Assembly (NCBI RefSeq): GCF_045679555.1
Contig: NC_092090.1
Location: forward strand, 25,506,038 to 25,570,037
DNA from: Salvelinus alpinus
Lineage: Eukaryota > Chordata > Actinopteri > Salmoniformes > Salmonidae
Reading direction: 5' to 3'
Length of the DNA: 64,000 nucleotides
The notes beneath the pieces are model-generated. The model did no database searches. It had not been told where the DNA came from and saw only the letters and a list, made by a program, of their open reading frames with translations. The translations under genes and the position numbers were made by a program. Position 1 is the first letter of the stretch. Every line of letters begins with the position of its first letter. Of this stretch, positions 1,984 through 63,953 are shown piece by piece.

Positions 1984-4900
1984 ATGGAAGACCCCAGTGG
2001 GAAGTGGAGGCGAAAATCATCCGTGAGAAAAGTCAAGGAGTAAGTAGAACATAAGCTTTCTACACCTCTCTGTAGCTTAGCTGTCACAAACATGATGTAT
2101 ATTATTCTGTATCATTAGGCTATATTTTTACAGCTGTTATATTGATGTAGCATTATTCATGAATTATTACTAAATTATCCTGACTAATGTGAATGTCTGT
2201 GAAAAGTGGAAACGTTGACTGTGTTGGTTCCTTCTCCCAGTCGAGCGTCGTAGTGGAGGTCCCTCCCTACCACAGTAAGACCGTGACCTCGGCTGTTCAG
2301 GTGCACTTTTACGTGTGTAACGGCAAACGGAAAAGGAGCCAATCACAACGCTTCACTTACCTGTCAGGTAGGAGGATCTACATTCTACACCAATCTTGAA
2401 TTGCAAGTCTTTAGAATCACTGGCGGTTGTGTTCCACTGCAGATGGTTAGATCTGGCAACACGTGATGTTTAGCTAACATCTCATCAACCACATTTATAT
2501 GATGTAGCAATTGTGTCGTATGTGTGGCAGTGGGAGTGTTCTAAAGACATACTGGAACAGGATCATGTGGAGTCACGTTGAAACCTGCTTTTCACTCCTC
2601 TGTTGACCTCTCAGGGGGATTGACAGAAAGCAGATACAGCCATGGAAAGCAGTAGCACACGCATACAAACATACACACACTGCCGAGGATCCTGCTTTTG
2701 GGCTTAGCTAACTAACCCGGTTTTGGAGAGCTTTGAACTTTCCCTCCCAGTTTGCATAGCTGTGGTTAAAGAAGGGGCACCTCCACTAACAGTTACATGT
2801 GCACCTGCCAACTGTTCATGTAAAGCACCATGAAACTTTATTGCTGTCTATTTCTGATGTGTATTTGCATTGAAGTTTTAGTATGCAAATCTTTGCTCTC
2901 CAGGAACATTTTATTACACACAGGAATTGTGGGAATTTCAAACGGTGTTGTTTGCCTAAAATGAAATCTCTCCGAGGCTGAATTTTCTTAATTTTTTTTT
3001 ACGTGGATTCTACAGTTTCCTAATGTTTTTCATTAAGTCAAATCCCTGCATAGTTACTTGATATTGTTATTGTTTTCCAACAATAACGTCAAACCAACGT
3101 TAGTCAAAACGAAAACTGTGTTGGCGGAATATAATGACAAGTGAGCAATTTCTGATATCTACCACAGCAGTGTGTGTGTTTAGATGTGTATGTGGCCCTC
3201 CACCCACTCTCCGTTTGCAGCACGTCGCCCACTCTTCAAGTGCTTCCTGTTTTCCACGCTACCCTACCAGGACAGCCAATTAGAGCACAGCACAGGAAGC
3301 CTGCTCTGTCAGTATAGACGCCACTATTGTTACCACGGACACCGCAGGCTTAATTGTGGCGTCACCGGCCCACCAATCACACTGTGCTACCTAGTGTGCG
3401 TGGGTAGTAGGGCCCTGGCTGGCCCGGTTTAGGGATGAACTGTGAGAAAAGAGCATCAGTTATCTTCTGAGATCCCTTAGAGAAGATGTCATGATTAGAA
3501 TGTGTAGGGTTCTCAGGTGTTCCTGGTCAGGTGGTCAAGACAAGAAAAGCTTTGTCATTAGGGTTGGCCAAATATGGATAGGTGCTGTCAGCATAGTCCA
3601 GAGGAAGACCCTTCTGTCTCTACAATATCGCAGTGCCTTTCCCCTTCAAAACGAAAACATGTAAAAAAGCACCATTTAACCCAATCTATCACAGTATCTC
3701 TGTCCCTTCCCCCTCAGACACAAGTCTTCCTGGCTGTATTCTCTCAGTAACATGCCTGTCAGAGGGAGGGCCATGGGAGGTAGTAGGGGTGCTAGGGGCT
3801 GTGAACTGGTTTGTCCTCCTCCTGGTTTCAGCATGGCTGGAAGGCATTTTGCTTCTCCCCATACTGCAGTCAACATGATGGCACCCAAACCCAACAACAT
3901 ATGCTCCCTCTCTCTGATTCAGAGCTGGGTCAAAATAAAACCCTGCCCGGTCACAAGCACCAGATTGGGAAATAGGTTACTGATTGGTACACAGCAGAGT
4001 TGTGCTATGCACTGTTGTAAAGGTGCTCCGTTTAAGTAAAGATTTCTAATCTAGTTAACACATACATTCTGAACTTGTGTGAACCACAGTGCTTTGACTT
4101 GGTGGATGTTGATTGGGAAGTTAATCCTGAGATTTGGCTATTTGTGGTGTTCCAGAATTTGGAAAAATAAATGAGTACTGCCTTGTGTTTTTCATTTTCT
4201 GTTGTTCATAATCATCACATACGTCACCAAAATATTTATGGCTGCAATGAAAGATTTTAATATATTAATGCTGGTATCATGTGAATGGCAATGTGTTGGT
4301 TTCCCGTACTGAGTGTCTCTCTCTCTCTCTCTCTCTCTCTCCCTCTTTGTCTACCGCCCTCCCTCCCTCTCTCTCTCTCGCTCTCACTCTCTCTCTCTCG
4401 CTCACTCTCACTCACTGTCTCCAGTCCTGGTGAAGCAGGAGCACAACAGAGAAGAGATGGAAGGGCCCCCTGCTGTGCCCCCCATGCCTGGTATGTCCAT
4501 GCCCCTGGCCCATGCTGCCAGCCTGGTCTGCAGTACCCACACCCAGCTACCTTCCCCTGAGCAGGGCCACCCACCGGACGGCCTTCTGTCCAGCTCTCCC
4601 CGGGGCCTGGCTGCGGGCCCCGGCTCCAGCCTCCATACTCTGCAGCCTGCCTGCCCCCTCATGGGCTCCCCCTCCTTCCAGCACCTGCCTCACCTCCAGG
4701 GCCGAGGCCTCCACACGCCTGCTGACTGCCACATGACGTTCCATCCGGGCCCAGCCCCTCCCAACAGGCCCTCCTACCAACACCATCCTATGCAGCAGAG
4801 TCACACCCACCCCGGCCACCTAAGCAACCTAAATCCCAACCTGCCCTACAATGGCCAGCCCAGCCTTTCCATGAACACTGGGGGTCCGCAGGGCTATGAG

Positions 4901-6040
4901 AGGATGCCTTACCACCAGCAGCAGTCTGACCCTGGGGCCTCCCACCCCCACCCCATGGGGCTGGGTATGGTGTACCACTCCTCCCCATCTACCTCCACCC
5001 AGCAGGCCTCCAGCCCCCACAGCCCCATCTCCACGGCGCCCCACAGCCAGCCCATGACCCACTCCTCATCTCACCTGCTCTCCATGGGCTACCACTGCCC
5101 CCCCAACCCCAGCCAGGTGCCCTCGCCCACCCGACCCATCCACCCCATGGGCCAGCCCTCACCCACCCACCCCAACCATCCGATGCAGCCCTCCCCCCAG
5201 CTGCAGAGAGCTATGGGGGGCTACCACCCCACCAGCCAGAGGTCTGCCTCCTGTCCCACTACATCCAGTGCCCCTCCAGCCCACATGGTTGCCTCGCCCC
5301 ATTCCGGGCCATCCTCCCCCCAGCTCCACTCCCTGCCCTACCAGTCTCCCACCTCCCCCTCCCCCACCGGCAGCCCTCTGGGCCCCCCAGCACACAGTCC
5401 CCAGGCCAGCAGCCCTGTCATGTCCAGCCTGTCCCCAGGCTCATGCAGCAGCAACCCCGTGCAGCAGCACCCCCTTGCCCCCCAGCAGAGCCCCTTCCCT
5501 ATGGAGGGGGAGAGTGTGAACATCAAGCAGGAGCCGGAGGAGAGAGAGCCCACCTTCAGATCCATCGGCCTGCAGGACATCACATTGGACGACGGTAAGA
5601 CACAGCTCTGTCTGTCAGCCTCTCCATCTCTCTATGTGTCTGTACTCACTACACTCTCTCTGTATCTCATTCTCTCTTGATTAGAGGGAATTTAAAAGCC
5701 CTTACATTTTATTATTTTATTATCCTTTTAGAATAAAAAAAAAGTTGCATTACATTACATTGTTGCATAGCATCCAGCTAACACGTGTTTTACAAAAATG
5801 CTTGTTTTATAACACTGTAAAAAGATACCTTCCACCAGTTAGTGAATTCTCCTGGGTGAAATGATGTCTCGTTGTAGTGATTTGTATTTCATAAATACAG
5901 CACTTAAACCGGCAGTTGGGTTTTGTACACAGTAGGGTTGTTATTGAGTGGTACTGACAGGAGGATTGGACATCATAGCAGCACAATAGACTAATGACTC
6001 TCACACTATTGACCTCGTCACAAATAGCTCATCCCCATCT

Positions 6041-25412: not shown

Positions 25413-47526
<22,114 letters not shown>

Positions 47527-49194: not shown

Positions 49195-50794
49195 CAGTTG
49201 AAGTCGGAAGTTTACATACACCTTAGCCAAATACATTTAAACTCAGTTTTTCACAATTCCTGACATTTAATCCTAGTAAAAATTCCCTGTTTTGGTCAGT
49301 TAGGATCACAACTTTATTTTAAGAATGTGAAATGTCAGAATAATAGTAGAGAGAATTATTTCTTTCAGCTTTTATTTCTTTCATCACATTCCCAGTGGGT
49401 CAGAAGTTTACATACACTCAATTAGTATTTGGTAGCATTGGCTTTAAATTGTTTAACTTGGGTCAAACATTCCAGGTAGCCTTCAACAAGCTTCCCACAA
49501 TAAGTTGGGGGAATTTTGGCCCATTCCTCCTGACAGAGCTGGTGTAACTGAGTCAGGTTTGTAGGCATCCTTGCTCGCACACACTTTTTCAGTTCTGCCC
49601 ACACATTTTCTATGGGATTGAGGTCAGGACTTGGTGATGGCCACTCCAATACCTTGACTTTGTTGTCCTTAAGCCATTTTGCCACAACTTTGGAAGTATG
49701 CTTGGGGTCATTGTCCATTTGGAAGACCCATTTGCGACCAAGCTTTAACTTTCTGACTGACGTCTTGAGATGTTCCTTCAATATATCCACAGAATTTTCC
49801 TTCCACATGATGCCATCTATTTTGTGAAGTGCACCAGTACCTCCTGCAGCAAAGCACCCCCACAACATGATGCTGCCATCTCTGTGCTTCACGGTTGGGA
49901 TGGTGTTCTTTGGCTTGCAAGCCTCCCCCTTTTTCCTCCAAACATAACCATGGTCATTATGGCCAAACAGTTCTATTTTTCTTTCATCAGACCTGAGGAC
50001 ATTTTCTCAAAAAGTACGACCTTTGTCCCCATGTGCAGTTGCAAACCGTAGTCTGGCTTTTTTATGGCGGTTTTGGAGCAGTGGCTTCTTCCTTGCTGAG
50101 TAGCCTTTCAGGTTATGTCGATGTAGGACTCGTTTTACTGTGAATATAGATACTTTTGTACCCGTTTCCTCCAGCATCTTCACAAGGTCCTTTGCATTTG
50201 TTCTGGGATTAATTTTCACTTTTCGCACCAAAGTACGTTCATCTCTAGGAGACAGAATGCGTCTCCTTCCTGAGCGGTATGACAGCTGCGTGGTCCCATG
50301 GTGTTTATACTTGCGTACTATTGTTTGTACAGATGAATGTGGTACCTTCAGGCGTTTGGAAATTGCTCCCAAGGATGAACCAGACTTGTGGAGATCAACA
50401 ATTTTTTTTTTGATGTCTTGGCTGATTTCTTTTGAGTTTCCCATGATGTCAAGCAAAGAGTTTGAAAGTAGGCCTTGAAATACATCCTCAGGTACACCTC
50501 CAATTGACTCCAATGATGTCAATTAGCCTATCAGAAGCTTCTAAAGCCATGACACCATTTTCCTGAATTTTCCAAGCTGTTTAAAGGCACTTCTGACCCA
50601 CTGGAATTGTGATTAAATAAATTAAATAATCTGTCTGTAAACAATTGTTGGGAGAAAATACTTGTGTCATGCACAAAGTAGATGTCCTAACCGACTTGCC
50701 AAAACTATAGTTTGTTAACAAGAAATTTGTGGTGGTTGAAAAATTAGTTTTAATGACTCCAACCTAAGTGTATGTAAACTTCCGACTTCAACTG
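49195..50794 (-). mobile_element. Sleeping Beauty-type Tc1 transposon, full length, nested
   Basis: The 1600-bp element has ends CAGTTGAAGTCGGAAGTTTA and the complementary TAAACTTCCGACTTCAACTG, inner IR/DR repeats (GGGTCAGAAGTTTACATACA at about 49397) and TA duplications at 49193-49194 and 50795-50796. The minus strand carries a transposase spanning exactly 341 codons including stop (50444-49422), the length of the salmonid Tc1 transposase. The paired-like domain (HKSGSSLGAISKRLKVPHSS, KYKHHGTTQLSYRSGRRR) and DDE blocks ([23 protein letters not shown]) are clear. One in-frame TGA (50009-50007) lies at a normally Trp codon, so the copy is a pseudogene. Confidence 0.95.
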
Positions 50795-51891: not shown

Positions 51892-51999
51892 CTCCCTCCC
51901 ACTGAGTGTATGAAACTCAGATGGAAGCTTTTAGGCCCTGCTGTGTCAGAGAAAGTGTGTTTAAGACATTATATGGTTGGTGGTTTCCTATATTACAGG

Positions 52000-53060
52000 G
52001 ACTGTGATGTATGATGGGACTGTGATGTATGATGTCTCATAAAATGCATTATATTTCCTAAGGCCTATACATACAACATACCAGTGGTGGATGATGGGAC
52101 TGTGATGTATGATGGGACTGTGATGTATGATGGGTCTGTGATGTATGATGGGACTGTGATGTATGATGGGACTGTGATGTATGATGGGACTGTGATGTAT
52201 GATGGGACTGTGATGTATGATGGGACTGTGATGTATGATGGGACTGTGATGTATGATGGGACTGTGATGTATGATGGGTCTGTGATGCATGATGGGACTG
52301 GAATGTATGATGGGACTGTGATGCATGATGGGACTGGGATGTATGATGGGACTGTGATGTATGATGGGACTGTGATGTATGATGGGACTGTGATGTATGA
52401 TGGGACTGTGATGTATGATGGGACTGTGATGTATGATGGGACTGTGATGTATGATGGGACTGGCATGTATGATGGGACTGTGATGTATGATGGGACTGTG
52501 ATGTATGATGGGACTGTGATGTATGATGGGACTGTGATGTATGATGGGACTGTGATGCATGATGGGACTGTGATGTATGATGGGACTGTGATGTATGATG
52601 GGACTGTGATGTATGATGGGACTGTGATGTATGATGGGACTGTGATGTATGATGGGACTGTGATGTATGATGGGACTGTGATGTATGATGGGGCTGTGAT
52701 GCATGATGGGACTGTGATGTATGATGGGACTGTGATGTATGATGGGACTGTGATGTATGATGGGACTGTGATGCATGATGGGACTGTGATGTATGATGGG
52801 ACTGTCATGTATGATGGGACTGTCATGTATGATGGGACTGTGATGTATGATGGGACTGTCATGTATGATGGGACTGTCATGTATGATGGGACTGTGATGT
52901 ATGATGGGACTGTGATGCATGATGGGACTGTGATGTATGATGGGACTGTGATGTATGATAGGACTGTGATGTATGATGGGACTGTGATGTATGATGGGAC
53001 TGTGATGTATGATGGGACTGTGATGTATGATGGGACTGTGATGTATGATGGGACTGGCAT
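52000..53060 (+). repeat. 18-bp minisatellite, about 58 copies
   Basis: The unit is GATGGGACTGTGATGTAT. Variants with GATGCAT, GGGTCTG, GGGGCTG, CTGTCATG and CTGG-ATG are spread through it. Since 18 is a multiple of 3 and the unit lacks stops in most frames, open frames of 310-335 codons exist on both strands (for example MYDGTV repeats on +). None has a plausible start context or any resemblance to a protein family. A 51-bp non-repeat segment (52032-52082) separates the first two units from the rest. Confidence 0.97.
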
Positions 53061-53529
53061 GTATTTCCCACGTGTTTTTATCTACACATAAAGGGAATTG
53101 CCGTAAGGTAGTCGGTCTCCATGTTTTGTGTTTCCTTCAGTGAGTGTTAATGGTGAGAAACTTCAATTCTGAATGAACTTGTCCTTTCTCTCAAGACTAG
53201 AGAGACAATCCTACTCTGGCAAGCTGTGACCAATGGTTTACATGTGTTTGACACCCTGCTAACTTTTTCTCACGCACTGACGGTTGTTTCCTCATTTTGC
53301 ACCGCACGTTCAGAACTTGGCAGAGTCCTTTTGCTGATGGGCTCTGCACACATAACTCACATCACACCATTTACCCACTGTGATTTTCCATAATTACATT
53401 GTCACACCAATAACTGTGACTCACAGAAAGTCAAAGAGGAGATGATAATCAGTGTCAAACCTGTTACATCTAATTTTCAGTGTGCAGTTGAGTGTAGCCT
53501 ATTACACTCCATGCAAGCAACATCAGTGA
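53061..53529. other. intergenic, no feature seen
   Basis: Unique-looking sequence between the minisatellite and a SINE fragment; no exon or repeat is recognised. Confidence 0.4.
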
Positions 53530-56089: not shown

Positions 56090-57148
56090 TCAGGAAGAAA
56101 CATTTTCACATATATTTAGAAGTACATCCATTTGTTCCTTAGGCTCTGTGACACACTGTGAGCTGTGGCTCTGTTTCTGAGAGATGCTTGGTCTCTTGGT
56201 CACAAAGGACAGTTCTTTAGTCCCCTCTCCGGGAGCTGTGCTTGAGATGTGCCGGAACAATTTCTGAATGCCTGTCTCCCTCAGGGAACTCCGGAACATA
56301 CGCGCCACAAACACATAGAGCAAAGGGTTGACCGAACTACTGATGAACACGAGCGCTCCAGCGATGAAAGTCATGGTGGTTCTGACGCTCTCTATACGTG
56401 CTGCGGCCTCGCGGTGGGACCCCTTGATGGTGAGGATGACGAGGGAGAGCACGTTGCCGACGTGGTGAGGGGTCCAGCATAATGCGAACACCACTACCAT
56501 GCTTGCAATCAACCCCATGGACTTACGCTTGGACTTAAAGGTCATCTGTGCGATGCGGCTGTAGAGACAGCTGTAGCAGACGACAAGAATGCAAAAGGGG
56601 ACAGCAAAGCCCACCAGCGTCTCCAGTAGAACACACACTGCCTCCTGGCTGTCTGAGGTGTAGTCCCTGTACAGGCAATGCTCCTCCCCAGGGTCCCCCT
56701 CCACCACCTGGGTGGGAAAGACCGGGGTGCTGAATAGGAACGCAGCAGCCCACAGAACAATAAGAACTTTATTCAAGGCCTTCTTCCTCTTCCAGCCGGC
56801 TGAGGCAAAGGGGTGTCGCACAGCGACAAAGCGCTCGACGCTCATGAGGGTGATGAGGAAGACGCTGCTGTACATGCAGGTGTTGATGACGTACACCATG
56901 GCCTTACAGAATGCCTCCCCGAACACCCAGGAGCGGGCCAGGGAGTAGATCCACAGGGGCAGGGTGATGAGCACCAGCAGGTCTGCAGCAGCCAGCTGGA
57001 GGATGAGCACCACGGTGTGGGAGCGCTGCTGGACGTGCCTCAGGATGGTCCAGATCACCAGCAGGTTCCCCGGGACCCCCACCAGGAACGACAGGCCCAG
57101 GATCACACAGGCCACCACTGTCCCGCCAGCAAACTCATCAGGAGCCAT
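56090..57148 (-). CDS. Leukotriene B4 receptor-like GPCR, gene A
   Basis: An intronless frame of 352 codons from ATG 57148; upstream in-frame codons contain no ATG. It has class-A receptor hallmarks: GN in TM1 (residues 27-28), LAAAD in TM2 (D56), Cys81 before TM3, ERF (105-107) in place of DRY, the second-loop Cys in EEHCLYRDY, FALCWTPHH in TM6 and NPLLY in TM7. The sequence resembles fish LTB4 receptors, which couple to Gi and guide leukocyte chemotaxis toward LTB4. The C-tail is Ser/Thr-rich (phosphorylation). It is tandem with gene B, same strand, 0.8 kb apart. The subtype (ltb4r1 versus ltb4r2-like) is not certain. Confidence 0.88.
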   Translation of the reverse strand: MAPDEFAGGTVVACVILGLSFLVGVPGNLLVIWTILRHVQQRSHTVVLILQLAAADLLVLITLPLWIYSLARSWVFGEAFCKAMVYVINTCMYSSVFLITLMSVERFVAVRHPFASAGWKRKKALNKVLIVLWAAAFLFSTPVFPTQVVEGDPGEEHCLYRDYTSDSQEAVCVLLETLVGFAVPFCILVVCYSCLYSRIAQMTFKSKRKSMGLIASMVVVFALCWTPHHVGNVLSLVILTIKGSHREAAARIESVRTTMTFIAGALVFISSSVNPLLYVFVARMFRSSLRETGIQKLFRHISSTAPGEGTKELSFVTKRPSISQKQSHSSQCVTEPKEQMDVLLNICENVSS

Positions 57149-57954
57149 GGTGGACTCTGAAGCTGAAGACAGCTGATGATCGAACGGTTCTGGTTGATGC
57201 TGCCGATCGCCTTGCCTCACCTCGCCTTACGTGCCTTCTATCTGGTGTACATACTCAGACAGAAAAAAAGTGCTGCACCAGCAAGCTTTCACTTCCCTTT
57301 AACTTTGCTGAGGAGAACAGGAAAGAGGTTGGTTTTTCACAGAGCCATCATTCTGTGAGAGACATAGCACTGAGTCATCCAGTGGGTCCTTATTGTGGCA
57401 CTGTCTGGAAAAATATATCTTCTGAGATATTTTAAGAGTTCAAACAATTGTATTGACCACAAATTACTTTTATTGAAGTGATATGAACTTGAGATCAGAT
57501 GATTTTATTTTATTGTGATCAAATAGAGTAAGGCAGTGTGTTATTTTATGTAACATGAATTTCAATACAAAATAAAGGTTAAATCAAATAAATCAAATAA
57601 TATTCAAGGAATTGTAACATGACCATGAATACATGTTATTTAAATTATACCACTTTATGAGCAAATGCAATAGCTTTATTGTGTTAAATAGTCACAATTG
57701 AATTACTTGTGTAAACTTTTCTCACCGTATATCACAAGCGCCACAACAATATCTACATTTTGTACCATGATCATAAAAATACAACTTATAATCAAACTTC
57801 TAGATTCTAGACATATTTATTTCTCATCAATGCTGACATCTGAATCAATGATCAGGTCACAGTTTTCATTTGACATTTTAGTCATTTAGCAGGCGCTCTT
57901 ATCCAGAACGACTTATCCAGAATGCTCTTATCCAGCGCGACCATCTCTGTAGTC
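57149..57954 (-). other. spacer between the two receptor genes
   Basis: AT-rich spacer containing the 5' flank of gene A and 3' flank of gene B. TTTATT at 57816-57821 is AATAAA on the minus strand and could end gene B. The repeat fragment CATTTTAGTCATTTAGCAGG with GCTCTTATCCAGAACGACTT lies at about 57872-57942. Confidence 0.5.
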
Positions 57955-59046
57955 CTACACGGTAGTTATGTCTGTGGTATTGTTGCAGTCTGGCCTTACT
58001 GAGGACATTGTGTTTTCCGATCCTATTGTGTTGCCAGATCCTATTGTGTTTTCCGATCCTATTGTGTTGCCAGATCCCCTTAGCTTGGAGGAGGTGTGTG
58101 AGGAGAGTTCCTGGAACAGCCTGACCATGCGGGACTCCTGGAGACTGCCCTGGAAGTTCCTTGCAGCGAAGGAATAGAACACAGGGTTCACAGAGCTACT
58201 AATGAAGGCCAGCGCTCCAGAGATAAACACTATTGCAGTCTGGGCCACAGAAACAGGCACAGCATCATCTGGATCCTCTGTCAGGATGCTGACTAGGTCT
58301 ACAGTGTTGAGGACATGGTGAGGAAGCCAGCAGAGAACGAAGGCTACCACCACACTACTGATCAGAACTGTCGACTTCCGTTTGCTGCTGCCGAAATGCA
58401 TTGTCCTCAGGTGTGTTGCTACTAGACAGGAACAGACAGCCAGGGTGGAGAAGGGGACCACGAAGCCCACCAAGGTCTCCAGGCATAAGAACACCACCTC
58501 GTGGGCCCCTGAGCTGTACTCCCTGAAAAGACACTGCTCAGTCCCATCGATCTCATCGATGGAGCGGGTAAAAATGGATGGGATCCCTAAAAGGAAAGCC
58601 AGAGCCCAGATAGCCACTAAAGCCTTGTCCATAATGGCCTTGGTCTTCCAACGCAACATCTTGAACGGGTACCGGATGACAAGGAAGCGCTCAACGCTCA
58701 TGAGGGTGATGAGGAAGACGCTGCTGTACATGCAGGTGTTGATGACGTACACCATGGCCTTACAGGATGCATCCCCAAACACCCAGGAGCGGGCCAGGGA
58801 GTAGATCCACAGGGGCAGGGTGATGAGCACCAGCAGGTCTGCAGCAGCCAGCTGGAGGATGAGCACCACGGTGTGGGAGCGCTGCTGGACGTGCCTCAGG
58901 ATGGTCCAGATCACTAGCAGGTTTCCTGGGACCCCCACCAGGAACGACAGGCCCAGGATCACACAGACTACTGATCGCCCTACGATTGACATTTCTAAAG
59001 ACAATGCATCATCATCGTCTGAGATGGAGGAGCCCGAGCTTTTCAT
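57955..59046 (-). CDS. Leukotriene B4 receptor-like GPCR, gene B
   Basis: An intronless frame of 363 codons from ATG 59046. It opens with an acidic N-terminus (SSISDDDDALSLEMS). TM1 to TM3 are nearly identical to gene A (VILGLSFLVGVPGNLLVIW, ending LMSVERF). The rest is clearly diverged (ALAFLLGIPSIFTRSIDEID, FVLCWLPHHVLN, SSSVNPVFYSFAARNFQ). Conserved receptor residues are intact: GN, LAAAD, ERF, CWLP, NPxxY. The tail ends in a short repeat of GSGNTIGSENTI type before SSVRPDCNNTTD. It is a paralogue of gene A and likely a functional Gi-coupled chemoattractant receptor. Confidence 0.88.
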   Translation of the reverse strand: MKSSGSSISDDDDALSLEMSIVGRSVVCVILGLSFLVGVPGNLLVIWTILRHVQQRSHTVVLILQLAAADLLVLITLPLWIYSLARSWVFGDASCKAMVYVINTCMYSSVFLITLMSVERFLVIRYPFKMLRWKTKAIMDKALVAIWALAFLLGIPSIFTRSIDEIDGTEQCLFREYSSGAHEVVFLCLETLVGFVVPFSTLAVCSCLVATHLRTMHFGSSKRKSTVLISSVVVAFVLCWLPHHVLNTVDLVSILTEDPDDAVPVSVAQTAIVFISGALAFISSSVNPVFYSFAARNFQGSLQESRMVRLFQELSSHTSSKLRGSGNTIGSENTIGSGNTIGSENTMSSVRPDCNNTTDITTV

Positions 59047-59300: not shown

Positions 59301-60010
<710 letters not shown>

Positions 60011-61672: not shown

Positions 61673-63953
61673 ATGCCTCTGCTATTCCTGGAGAGGTTTC
61701 CCTGGCCCAGTCTGCAGACCTACACAGCGCTGAGTGTGGTTCTGCTGGCTGGAAGCATCTTCAGCGCCTACACTACTGTGACTGAACAGGGGTTTGGGGT
61801 TCCAGACATGGACGAGCCTCCACCACCACCACCCTTAAAAGGGGATAATAGAGGCGGCCTAGGCCTAGAACATGTGACTAGCGATGATGTTGTGAGTGCA
61901 GATACAGAATTGGCGACCACTGTTATGTGGTACCTGGTCACTGACAGTCTCTTTGTATGGGTAAGTCTTATTCAAGATAGGCTCAGCTCAGCCAAGCAGC
62001 CAATATTGTTGTTACGTTACTTAGTTGTTACATGGTTGCTAAGTTGTCTGCTCTTCTCTACTCAGGTGTTGGTGAATACAGCTTGCTGTTCTCTGATGTT
62101 AATTGCTAAGATGATCCAGTGCATGGTTTTTGGGCCCCTCCGAGTCAGTGAGAAGCAGGTGAGGCTTGGAGTTGTGGTGGTAACCCAATAACTGATATTT
62201 GGGATAATAATGTCACGTTATTGAAGGTTAGGCATCTAACTGTGTTTATGTAAACTATAGTACAAATGTCCTCCACAAATAGTCTGCAAAACAAGATCTT
62301 ATCATTGAAATCCAAACTGGTGGTTTGAGTCTATTAGTGTAGTCTGACCACTCCATCCATGTTCTAATGTCTTGACCTCTCCTCTCTCCACCCCTCTCTC
62401 TTCCCATCTCCTCTCTACTCCACTCCCCTCCTCTCTCTCCTCAGCACCTTAAGGACAAGTTCTGGAACTTCATCTTCTATAAGTTCATCTTTATCTTCGG
62501 GGTACTGAACGTTCAGATGGTGGAGGAGGTGGTCATGTGGTGTCTGTGGTTCTCTGCCCTGGTCTTCCTCCACCTCATGGTCCAGCTGTGCAAGGACCGC
62601 TTTGAATACGTACGTCTCATCAACCTCTAACAGTACATTTTAGTAATTTAGCAGACGCTCTTATTCAGAGCGACTTACATTGGTGCATTCATCTTAAGAT
62701 AGCTTAACACTTTACTGTTGGTGTCTTTATGAATGCATTCATAAACCTTTATAACAGCTATATAACAACATTTGTCATAAGTAGTTTTAAACAATTATGA
62801 GTAACGGCATGATATAAAGGTTCAATTCAAAAAAAGATTATGTTATAAAACTAGTTATATTGGGTAACAAGTGCTATTATCAATTTTTTATTTTTTTTAT
62901 TTTTTTATAATTACACAGTGTGCATGACAACTTATTAGAGTACTGAATAAAAAACTGAAATAAGGAAATTACAAAATGTAGATTGGCCCACTCACTGTAC
63001 TGTAGGGAGAGTGACCTTGTTGACTTGTTTACACTGTAAACATATATACCTATGTTAGATGCCAGTGATATGACGCTGTTGGGTATACATTCAGTCACAG
63101 TGAATGCCATAGACCGGGTCTCTTTCAGGTCCAGGCCAGACCTATTAATAAGCCTAGTTCTTGCTGTATGTATGTAGGCCAGGGTCTTAGGTTTAGCTAA
63201 TGTTTCAGTCACTTCATAGACTCAAACTACAGAGTGGGGGAGTACAAAAAAACTAAGATGAACATTTAGGTAGTGTGCTGTAGCTATAGGAAAACAGAAC
63301 ATCACACCATATTGTGAAGAATGACATCTCTCTGTCTGCAATCAATGGGTGTTAGGTTTGATCCTTATCATATCAACTGACATTGTAGCTGTTGGAATGC
63401 TGTACTTTGTTGCTGCTGTCTGCAGTAAAAGTTGGATGAAAGGCTGCATAACAAGCCTGTATGTGTGTCACTGTACCTGTGTCAATATTGTTGTGTGTCA
63501 CTAGACATGTTATTTGAGCATGTGTTAGTAGTACAGTATGGGGCTGCAGTGACACTGCCCAGATAAAGCTTACCTCTTGACCAAAAACATGCTCAACGGG
63601 AAAGTCTATTGAAAGAGTAGCCATGAAGTCTGCAACCACCCCTAAATTGTTATTCTGTGTGTCGGTCGCTCTTTGTATGAAAGTACAAGTTATATGTAGG
63701 TGTGCATGTCCGTCTACATCTGTGTGTGTGTGTGTTTAGTAATCTCTCTTTCTGAATGAATGTATACAGTAGGTTAATGTGTACCTGTTCCCCCTTGCAG
63801 CTGTCCTTCTCCCCCACTACTTCTATGAACAGCCATGTGCGTGTCCTTACCCTACTGGTGTCCCTGCTGCTGGGCTGCTGTGGTCTTGCTGTGGTCTGTG
63901 GTCTGCTGGGTGCTGCACATGGCATGCACACCCTCTCCTTCATGGCTGCCGAG
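61673..63953 (+). CDS. amfr: AMFR (gp78) ER ubiquitin ligase, first four coding exons (partial)
   Basis: Exons 61673-61960, 62066-62158, 62445-62609 and 63801-63953 all end in phase 0 with AG/GT borders. Together they encode 233 residues. They begin MPLLFLERFPWPSLQTYTAL and continue with LFVW/VLVNTACCSLMLIAK, then VFGPLRVSEKQHLKDKFWNF, IFIFGVLNVQMVEEVVMWCL and LSFSPTTSMNSHVRVL, with GMHTLSFMAAE at the end. This is the multi-pass N-terminal part of AMFR, which anchors the RING-type E3 in the ER membrane for ERAD. The RING, CUE and p97-binding parts lie to the right of the window. The luminal/cytosolic linker after TM1 (residues about 45-85) is acidic and Pro-rich and poorly conserved. Confidence 0.95.
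62632..62700 (+). repeat. Teleost dispersed repeat core (TTTAGCAGACGCTCTTAT)
   Basis: ACATTTTAGTAATTTAGCAG, ACGCTCTTATTCAGAGCGAC and TTACATTGGTGCATTC, just 22 bases after the exon 3 donor of amfr. A related fragment is at 57872-57942. Confidence 0.7.
62701..63800 (+). other. amfr third intron remainder
   Basis: AT-rich start, an A/T tract at about 62880-62915 and a short TG run at 63722-63735. No exon or transposon is recognised. The intron ends TTCCCCCTTGCAG. Confidence 0.5.

Follow-up and report, generated by a model that had tools for sequence, protein, structure and literature searches.

The stretch of DNA analysed here, referred to below as the window, comprises 64,000 nucleotides of the salmonid Salvelinus alpinus (NCBI RefSeq assembly GCF_045679555.1, contig NC_092090.1, positions 25,506,038 to 25,570,037 of the forward strand; contig 5 below). 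It carries two tandem receptor genes, A and B, whose coding sequences are strongly diverged except for a block of 282 bases in which they are nearly identical. This block very probably arose by gene conversion between the two genes, which are old tandem paralogues, and a second pair of genes on contig 33, A' and B', carries the same tract (Table 1).

Both A and B are predicted to be class A (rhodopsin-like) G-protein-coupled receptors. They score above the gathering cut-off of Pfam 7tm_1 (30.5), with 171.3 bits (E 3.6e-50) for gene A and 171.5 bits (E 3.1e-50) for gene B, and their likely ATG codons lie at 57148 and 59046, respectively. The best match of either gene in the PDB is human BLT1 (7vkt; E 1.8e-49 for gene A and 3.5e-51 for gene B), which makes BLT1, by sequence, the best solved relative of both; each gene also matches BLT1 better than does the next receptor of the same genome that was tried, L022 (E 1.2e-33). 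A further likeness is seen in zebrafish, which has Blt1, Blt2a, and Blt2b, and where blt1 and blt2a share one chromosome (PMC4349892). The name of leukotriene B4 (LTB4) receptor, given to the genes in an earlier reading made from the sequence alone, nevertheless stands for a resemblance only. In human BLT1, the alanine mutants of H94 (position 3.29), R156 (4.64), and R267 (7.35) almost abolish activity (PMC8894450). In alignments to BLT1, all four genes have V at position 3.29, position 4.64 is Q, Q, R, and S in A, A', B, and B', and position 7.35 is T, T, V, and V in the same order. Thus, of these three polar LTB4-binding residues, gene A keeps none and gene B keeps one (R4.64, which is found in B alone), whereas H3.29 and R7.35 are absent from all four genes. 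In the C-terminal tail of gene B, an 18-base tandem repeat (58007-58077) encodes repeated GNTIGSEN-like residues.

Table 1. Coordinates of the receptor genes and associated features (numbered within the window; C33 denotes contig 33; TM, transmembrane helix; ORF, open reading frame)
Feature	Coordinates	Strand	Basis or remark
Gene A, predicted class A receptor, BLT1-like, 352 aa, one open frame	56090..57148	-	ORF, Pfam, PDB match
Gene B, predicted class A receptor, BLT1-like, 363 aa, one open frame	57955..59046	-	ORF, Pfam, PDB match
Gene A'	C33:28540686-28541744		Open, colinear with gene A
Gene B'	C33:28538788-28539879		Open, colinear with gene B
Probable conversion tract, gene A (from TM1 to ERF motif)	56829..57110	-	Change-point fit
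Probable conversion tract, gene B (at an offset of 1856 to that of gene A)	58685..58966	-	Change-point fit; C33 pair alike
TM2 codon, position 2.45	56996..56998 (A), 58852-58854 (B)	-	Gln in A and B; His in A' and B'
Spacer between the coding regions of A and B	57149..57954	.	13/806 aligned bases differ from C33

The sequence-only reading had drawn attention to two blocks, 56831-57110 and 58687-58966, and these are colinear and gapless, with differences at 7 of 280 sites (97.5% identity). A two-state change-point fit gives the slightly different extent listed in Table 1, the two genes agreeing at 275 of 282 sites within the tract and at 393 of 759 elsewhere (gain in log-likelihood [lnL] of 121); the 2-lnL support of the borders spans only four bases at each end (57107-57110 and 56829-56832). 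The tract does cover the segment from TM1 to the ERF motif, as had been claimed, and the statement that about half of the residues match after TM3 also holds, with the same residue in 74 of the 162 aligned codons from the tract end to about TM7. The change from one regime to the other is abrupt: in an ungapped comparison the flanking 100 bases match at 51% on one side and 33% on the other, and the first 24-column bins past the borders already match at only 11/24 and 8/17, with no intermediate zone. The longest identical run, of 137 bases, was reached in none of 20,000 shuffles of the sites (largest shuffled run 34), and neither was the run of 42 identical silent codons (0/20,000; largest 33). 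The tract therefore has two borders, both lying in alignable sequence and both beyond chance. The offset of 1856 bases and the reading frame are held exactly at both borders, where there is no insertion, deletion, or misplacement. Among direct repeats of at least 30 nt between 54000 and 62500, a 300-nt family (56808/58664) is the only one represented in both genes. The idea that the 137 identical bases at the centre mark a second, younger conversion fell short of significance (P 0.07).

The silent sites change just as sharply. With the fitted borders, the synonymous divergence (dS) between A and B is 0.073 in the tract and 2.35 in the rest; if the tract is taken two codons wider, a count that works against the conversion claim, the values are 0.10 in the tract and 2.04 from there to about TM7. 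The 20 aligned codons before the tract, which offer few sites, give a dS of 1.09. Where A and B share a residue, the codons are identical in 86 of 92 cases in the tract and in 37 of the 74 cases that follow it (Fisher P 1.6e-10), and the four-fold sites are identical at 50/54 and 16/34 positions, respectively. Because the silent sites show the same step as the protein (dS 0.07-0.10 against more than 2), constraint on the protein alone is insufficient to account for the block.

As a control, we searched the same genome with protein B, fetched 30 of the 112 scored matches, read their frames, and compared them in pairs. A filter was passed by 29 of the 30 loci (L037 fell out by length), which left 406 of 435 pairs, or 402 without the four pairs of A-type with B-type genes. 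In these 402 pairs, the identity of TM1-TM3 exceeds that of the rest by 0.109 on average (standard deviation [sd] 0.057, maximum 0.223), whereas in the four A/B pairs the excess is 0.527-0.548. The proportion of silent differences (pS) in TM1-TM3 is 0.055-0.096 in the A/B pairs, against a lowest value of 0.446 among 390 divergent pairs. Likewise, the change-point gain is 129-137 for the A/B pairs, and the next value among the 434 of 435 pairs that yielded a tract fit, 39, was caused by a short divergent end. The GC content of third codon positions (GC3) in the tract is raised above the rest of the same gene by 0.21 in A, 0.18 in A', 0.24 in B, and 0.30 in B'; in 26 other receptors this excess has a mean of 0.006 (sd 0.12) and a maximum of 0.229, so that only B and B' exceed the range. 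Biased conversion, which one study suggests to be weak in salmonids (PMC11703093), could be the cause of the raised GC3. Nine CpG sites in the block are common to both genes, three are found in A only, and none in B only, which suggests that B has lost CpGs since homogenisation and gives no pointer to the template; a search for the donor by composition, using CpG counts and GC3, singled out neither gene. Two other pairs that surfaced in the control set deserve mention in their own right. L022 and L023 (G000:C29:36140582 and 36124473) are near-identical receptors 16 kb apart, with a silent difference of 0 in TM1-3 and 0.047 in the rest. In L024 and L028 (G000:C4:18693775 and 55860434) the order seen in A/B is reversed, with a dS of 0.35 after TM3 and a higher value, 0.97, in TM1-3, and no clear tract is apparent in that pair when viewed by 20 codons.

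Across the genome (2.37 Gb in 928 contigs), the tract occurs in four copies, two in the window and two on contig 33. The borders of the tract between A' and B' fall in the same places as those between A and B, namely at 57110 (support 57107-57110) and 56832 (support 56829-56835). The regions on contigs 5 and 33, compared through the window and for 20 kb past it in aligned blocks of at least 150 bases (60,873 aligned bases in all), differ by 2.95% substitutions, and this divergence is uneven, with a variance-to-mean ratio of 5.7 in 113 windows of 500 bases. Judged by their sequences, the two regions look like homeologous blocks that separated late; salmonid genomes are known to contain such regions, in which tetrasomic inheritance persists or rediploidization was delayed (PMC6553544, PMC5470254). 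Within the window, 57842-58441 differs from contig 33 at a single base of 600, and the adjoining 58442-59041 at 23 of 600, as would result from an exchange between the homeologues, or a switch in the assembly, that ended near 58440.

The homeologues also provided material for trees of the separate segments, in which A' and B' served in place of orthologues from other species. Outside the tract, every one of the 358 sites that split two against two places A beside A' and B beside B', another 23 variable sites being single or of other kinds, and this gene-by-gene tree is ahead by 893 lnL units. Inside the tract, only one site supports A-A'/B-B', two support A-B'/A'-B, and seven are single or three-state. 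None of the three topologies is rejected there: A-B'/A'-B is best by 3.7 lnL units, and the p values of the approximately unbiased test (p-AU), for which the program warned of too few replicates, are 0.76 for A-B'/A'-B, 0.34 for A-A'/B-B', and 0.11 for grouping by chromosome. The deep branch between A and B thus collapses within the tract. A segment phylogeny had been proposed as a check on the conversion claim; with the homeologues, it shows the deep split to be lost in the tract but establishes no alternative tree in its place. The four tracts are about equally distant from each other, differing at 4 to 8 of the 282 sites (A-A' 4, B-B' 8, A-B 7, A'-B' 6, A-B' 5, A'-B 5). At position 2.45 in TM2, counted from the conserved Asp 2.50, the codons are CAG, CAC, CAG, and CAT in A, A', B, and B'. 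In simulations on a star tree, parallel change produced at least two A-B'/A'-B sites in 0.2-5% of cases, and at least two sites of either kind against the gene tree in 0.7-17%, depending on the CpG and transition rates.

Several explanations other than a discrete conversion have to be weighed against these observations. That selection alone has kept TM1-TM3 alike, with no exchange of DNA, is scarcely credible: this segment is indeed the better conserved one in the 402 control pairs, but in the A/B pairs homogenisation extends to the silent sites just as much as to the protein, with a pS far below that of the 390 divergent pairs, and the border is a step rather than a slope. An assembly artefact, be it a collapse, the copying of a consensus, or a chimera of two repeats, would find favourable ground in a 282-base direct repeat at 1,856 bases, which is error-prone for assemblers, and in a homeologous block that is very similar. 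However, the four tracts are mutually different, all four frames are open, and there is no N in the window. The locus on contig 33 has the same tract and the same borders with differences of its own (4 to 8 of 282 against the copies on contig 5), and a chimera is therefore very unlikely. The possibility of a chimera, which the sequence-only reading had named as a refutation, is thereby largely answered, as an assembler would need to have erred twice in the same way, with different base changes each time. The same reading had offered unequal crossing-over as an alternative to conversion. The direct tandem orientation of the genes allows such exchange, but two successive crossing-overs would be required, together with the loss of the intermediate copies, and each locus has two copies; this is a less simple account than conversion and a most improbable one. 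Copying of the patch once by template switching in replication or repair, outside the usual meiotic conversion pathway, would suit the abrupt borders and the low homology of the flanks, as expected of a low-homology mechanism. The borders, however, are clean, and both the frame and the offset are kept through them, and we consider such an origin unlikely. An overlapping antisense gene shared by both receptors was also considered and is not indicated, since no plus-strand frame stays open across the block in both: the three frames hold 0, 1, and 8 stops in gene A, against 1, 1, and 8 in gene B.

A more serious contender is continuous concerted evolution, which is itself a form of the conversion explanation and does not exclude it. 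Under this scheme, the tract would be an island of homology that never diverged since the duplication that produced A and B, being kept alike by repeated conversion among four copies, while the flanks escaped long ago. The near-equal distances among the four tracts with no clear tree, the two A-B'/A'-B sites, the grouping of position 2.45 by chromosome at the protein level, and the raised GC3, for which biased conversion could account, are all in its favour. On the other hand, a shrinking island should leave intermediate silent divergence in its flanks, and none is seen; the GC3 excess of A and A' lies within the range of the other receptors; and the reticulation among the four copies may stem from exchange between homeologues, from parallel changes, or from switches in the assembly. 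On either side, identity falls straight to about one half in the flanks, which favours discrete events over the slow shrinkage of an initially larger homogenised region. We regard continuous concerted evolution as possible, yet would not expect it to be correct. In its strongest form, the four copies on two homeologous chromosomes would constitute one recombining pool with fixed borders and continuing four-way conversion, the pool being kept alike because homology is left only in the 282-base island; to this, too, we give only tentative credence.

We therefore return to gene conversion between the old tandem paralogues as the origin of the block, the claim of the sequence-only reading that fared best: the silent sites are homogenised, the borders are abrupt, the deep split is lost, and none of the other receptor pairs compared shows such a pattern. 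The TM1-to-ERF segment of one gene would have served as the template that rewrote this segment in the other gene. This event may have taken place while the homeologous blocks still exchanged DNA, or just before their separation, with both chromosomes inheriting the result; the identical borders on the two chromosomes fit one event inherited by both. Later, smaller exchanges among the four copies would be possible inside the tract, the sole part of A and B alike enough to recombine. With respect to timing, the dS of the tract between A-type and B-type copies is 0.042-0.087 in the four comparisons, and the dS between homeologues is 0.028 and 0.087 in the tract and 0.028 and 0.033 in the rest. 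Since the former is about equal to the latter, the tract appears to have been homogenised around or since the separation of the homeologues. The earlier description of the conversion as recent is a relative one: the event goes back to about the time at which the homeologous blocks parted, and it is not peculiar to the locus in the window. The tract is probably older and wider in reach than first thought. Ohnologue-like receptor pairs of the same genome have a dS of roughly 0.05-0.5, a wide spread. The salmonid duplication is placed at about 90 million years ago (PMC11703093); if these pairs date from it, a rough guess for the age of the tract is some tens of millions of years.

Several points weigh against this history. 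The gene tree remains statistically compatible with the tract, as seen from the p-AU of A-A'/B-B' and subject to the same warning on replicates. Divergence at the level of the flanks normally blocks strand exchange, which makes a conversion hard to start. The timing is built on 14 changes in 279 sites, and the conflicting sites that hint at continued exchange are few and within the reach of parallel change at the simulated frequencies given above. Assembly switches between the near-alike homeologues of contigs 5 and 33 could also have mixed sites. Finally, the compared copies all come from one genome.

The sequence-only reading went further in supposing that conversion keeps the ligand pocket and the face that contacts the G protein uniform. 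This adaptive reading finds no footing here: of the 15 pocket residues of BLT1, taken as those listed as mutated in the human study (PMC8894450), 6 (2.60, 2.63, 2.64, 3.29, 3.36, and 3.37) lie inside the tract and the other 9 outside, and the key polar residues are absent. We found no evidence of selection favouring the tract.

Conversion is a textbook process, and precedents exist for its action on tandem fish receptor genes and on tandem copies carried by both salmonid homeologues (PMC3514295, PMC11703093). The teleost RH2 opsins are likewise tandem paralogues of class A receptors in fish (PMC3514295, PMC4281148), and medaka RH2B and RH2C carry a recombination signal, with similar and divergent segments within one pair (PMC3514295). 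In the extracts at hand, however, the similar segments that are named are introns, and the role of conversion in cod is left uncertain. The A/B tract, unlike these, is coding, lies in one open frame, is surrounded by silent saturation, and is common to a homeologous pair. A second precedent is the salmonid Prdm9 alpha1 a/b pair, a tandem pair thought to predate the genome duplication and present on both ohnologues, whose copies are without phylogenetic signal, which the authors of that work attribute to probable ectopic recombination and gene conversion (PMC11703093). There the signal is lost over whole copies, whereas A and B lose it in 282 bases and retain a gene-by-gene tree elsewhere. No published report of the A/B tract was found in the open-access literature searched, and a search of viral contigs yielded no relatives of the locus.

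The locus thus offers a clean, well-bordered coding conversion tract in receptor genes that are otherwise near silent-site saturation, with the homeologous chromosome as a built-in replicate. It also carries a warning, in that genes A and B may be misplaced in trees of fish BLT-like receptors, whether these use TM1-TM3 or the whole proteins. Together with their homeologues, these genes present a natural test of whether tandem conversion persists once homeologues stop pairing. Should the four copies indeed form a single pool, residual tetrasomy and tandem conversion would be jointly shaping part of a gene, and a change such as that from Gln to His at 2.45 would spread to both tandem receptors of a chromosome.

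Elsewhere in the window, two sets of DDE-type transposase frames, which we take to be Tc1/mariner-like, are found at 49422-50522 (Pfam DDE_3 in 49425-50006, E 4.4e-17) and at 42547-43641 (DDE_3 in 42550-43086, E 2.6e-13). At the edge of the window, an open frame at 3-899 is reverse-transcriptase-like, its RVT_1 match (E 2.2e-5) being below the curated score. The open frame at 61673-62191 presumably resembles the start of AMFR, and we assume the frames at 4313-5680 and within 30278-33960 to be NFAT- and ESRP-like; a Pfam search of four frames from these AMFR-, NFAT-, and ESRP-like candidates assigned none of them to a family. Upstream of gene B, at a distance of a few hundred bases, lies a long (CA)n microsatellite (59409-59672). 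A minisatellite of short repeats at 51988-53136 has long open frames on both strands, and its counterpart on contig 33 is about three times longer, with matches over about 3.1 kb.

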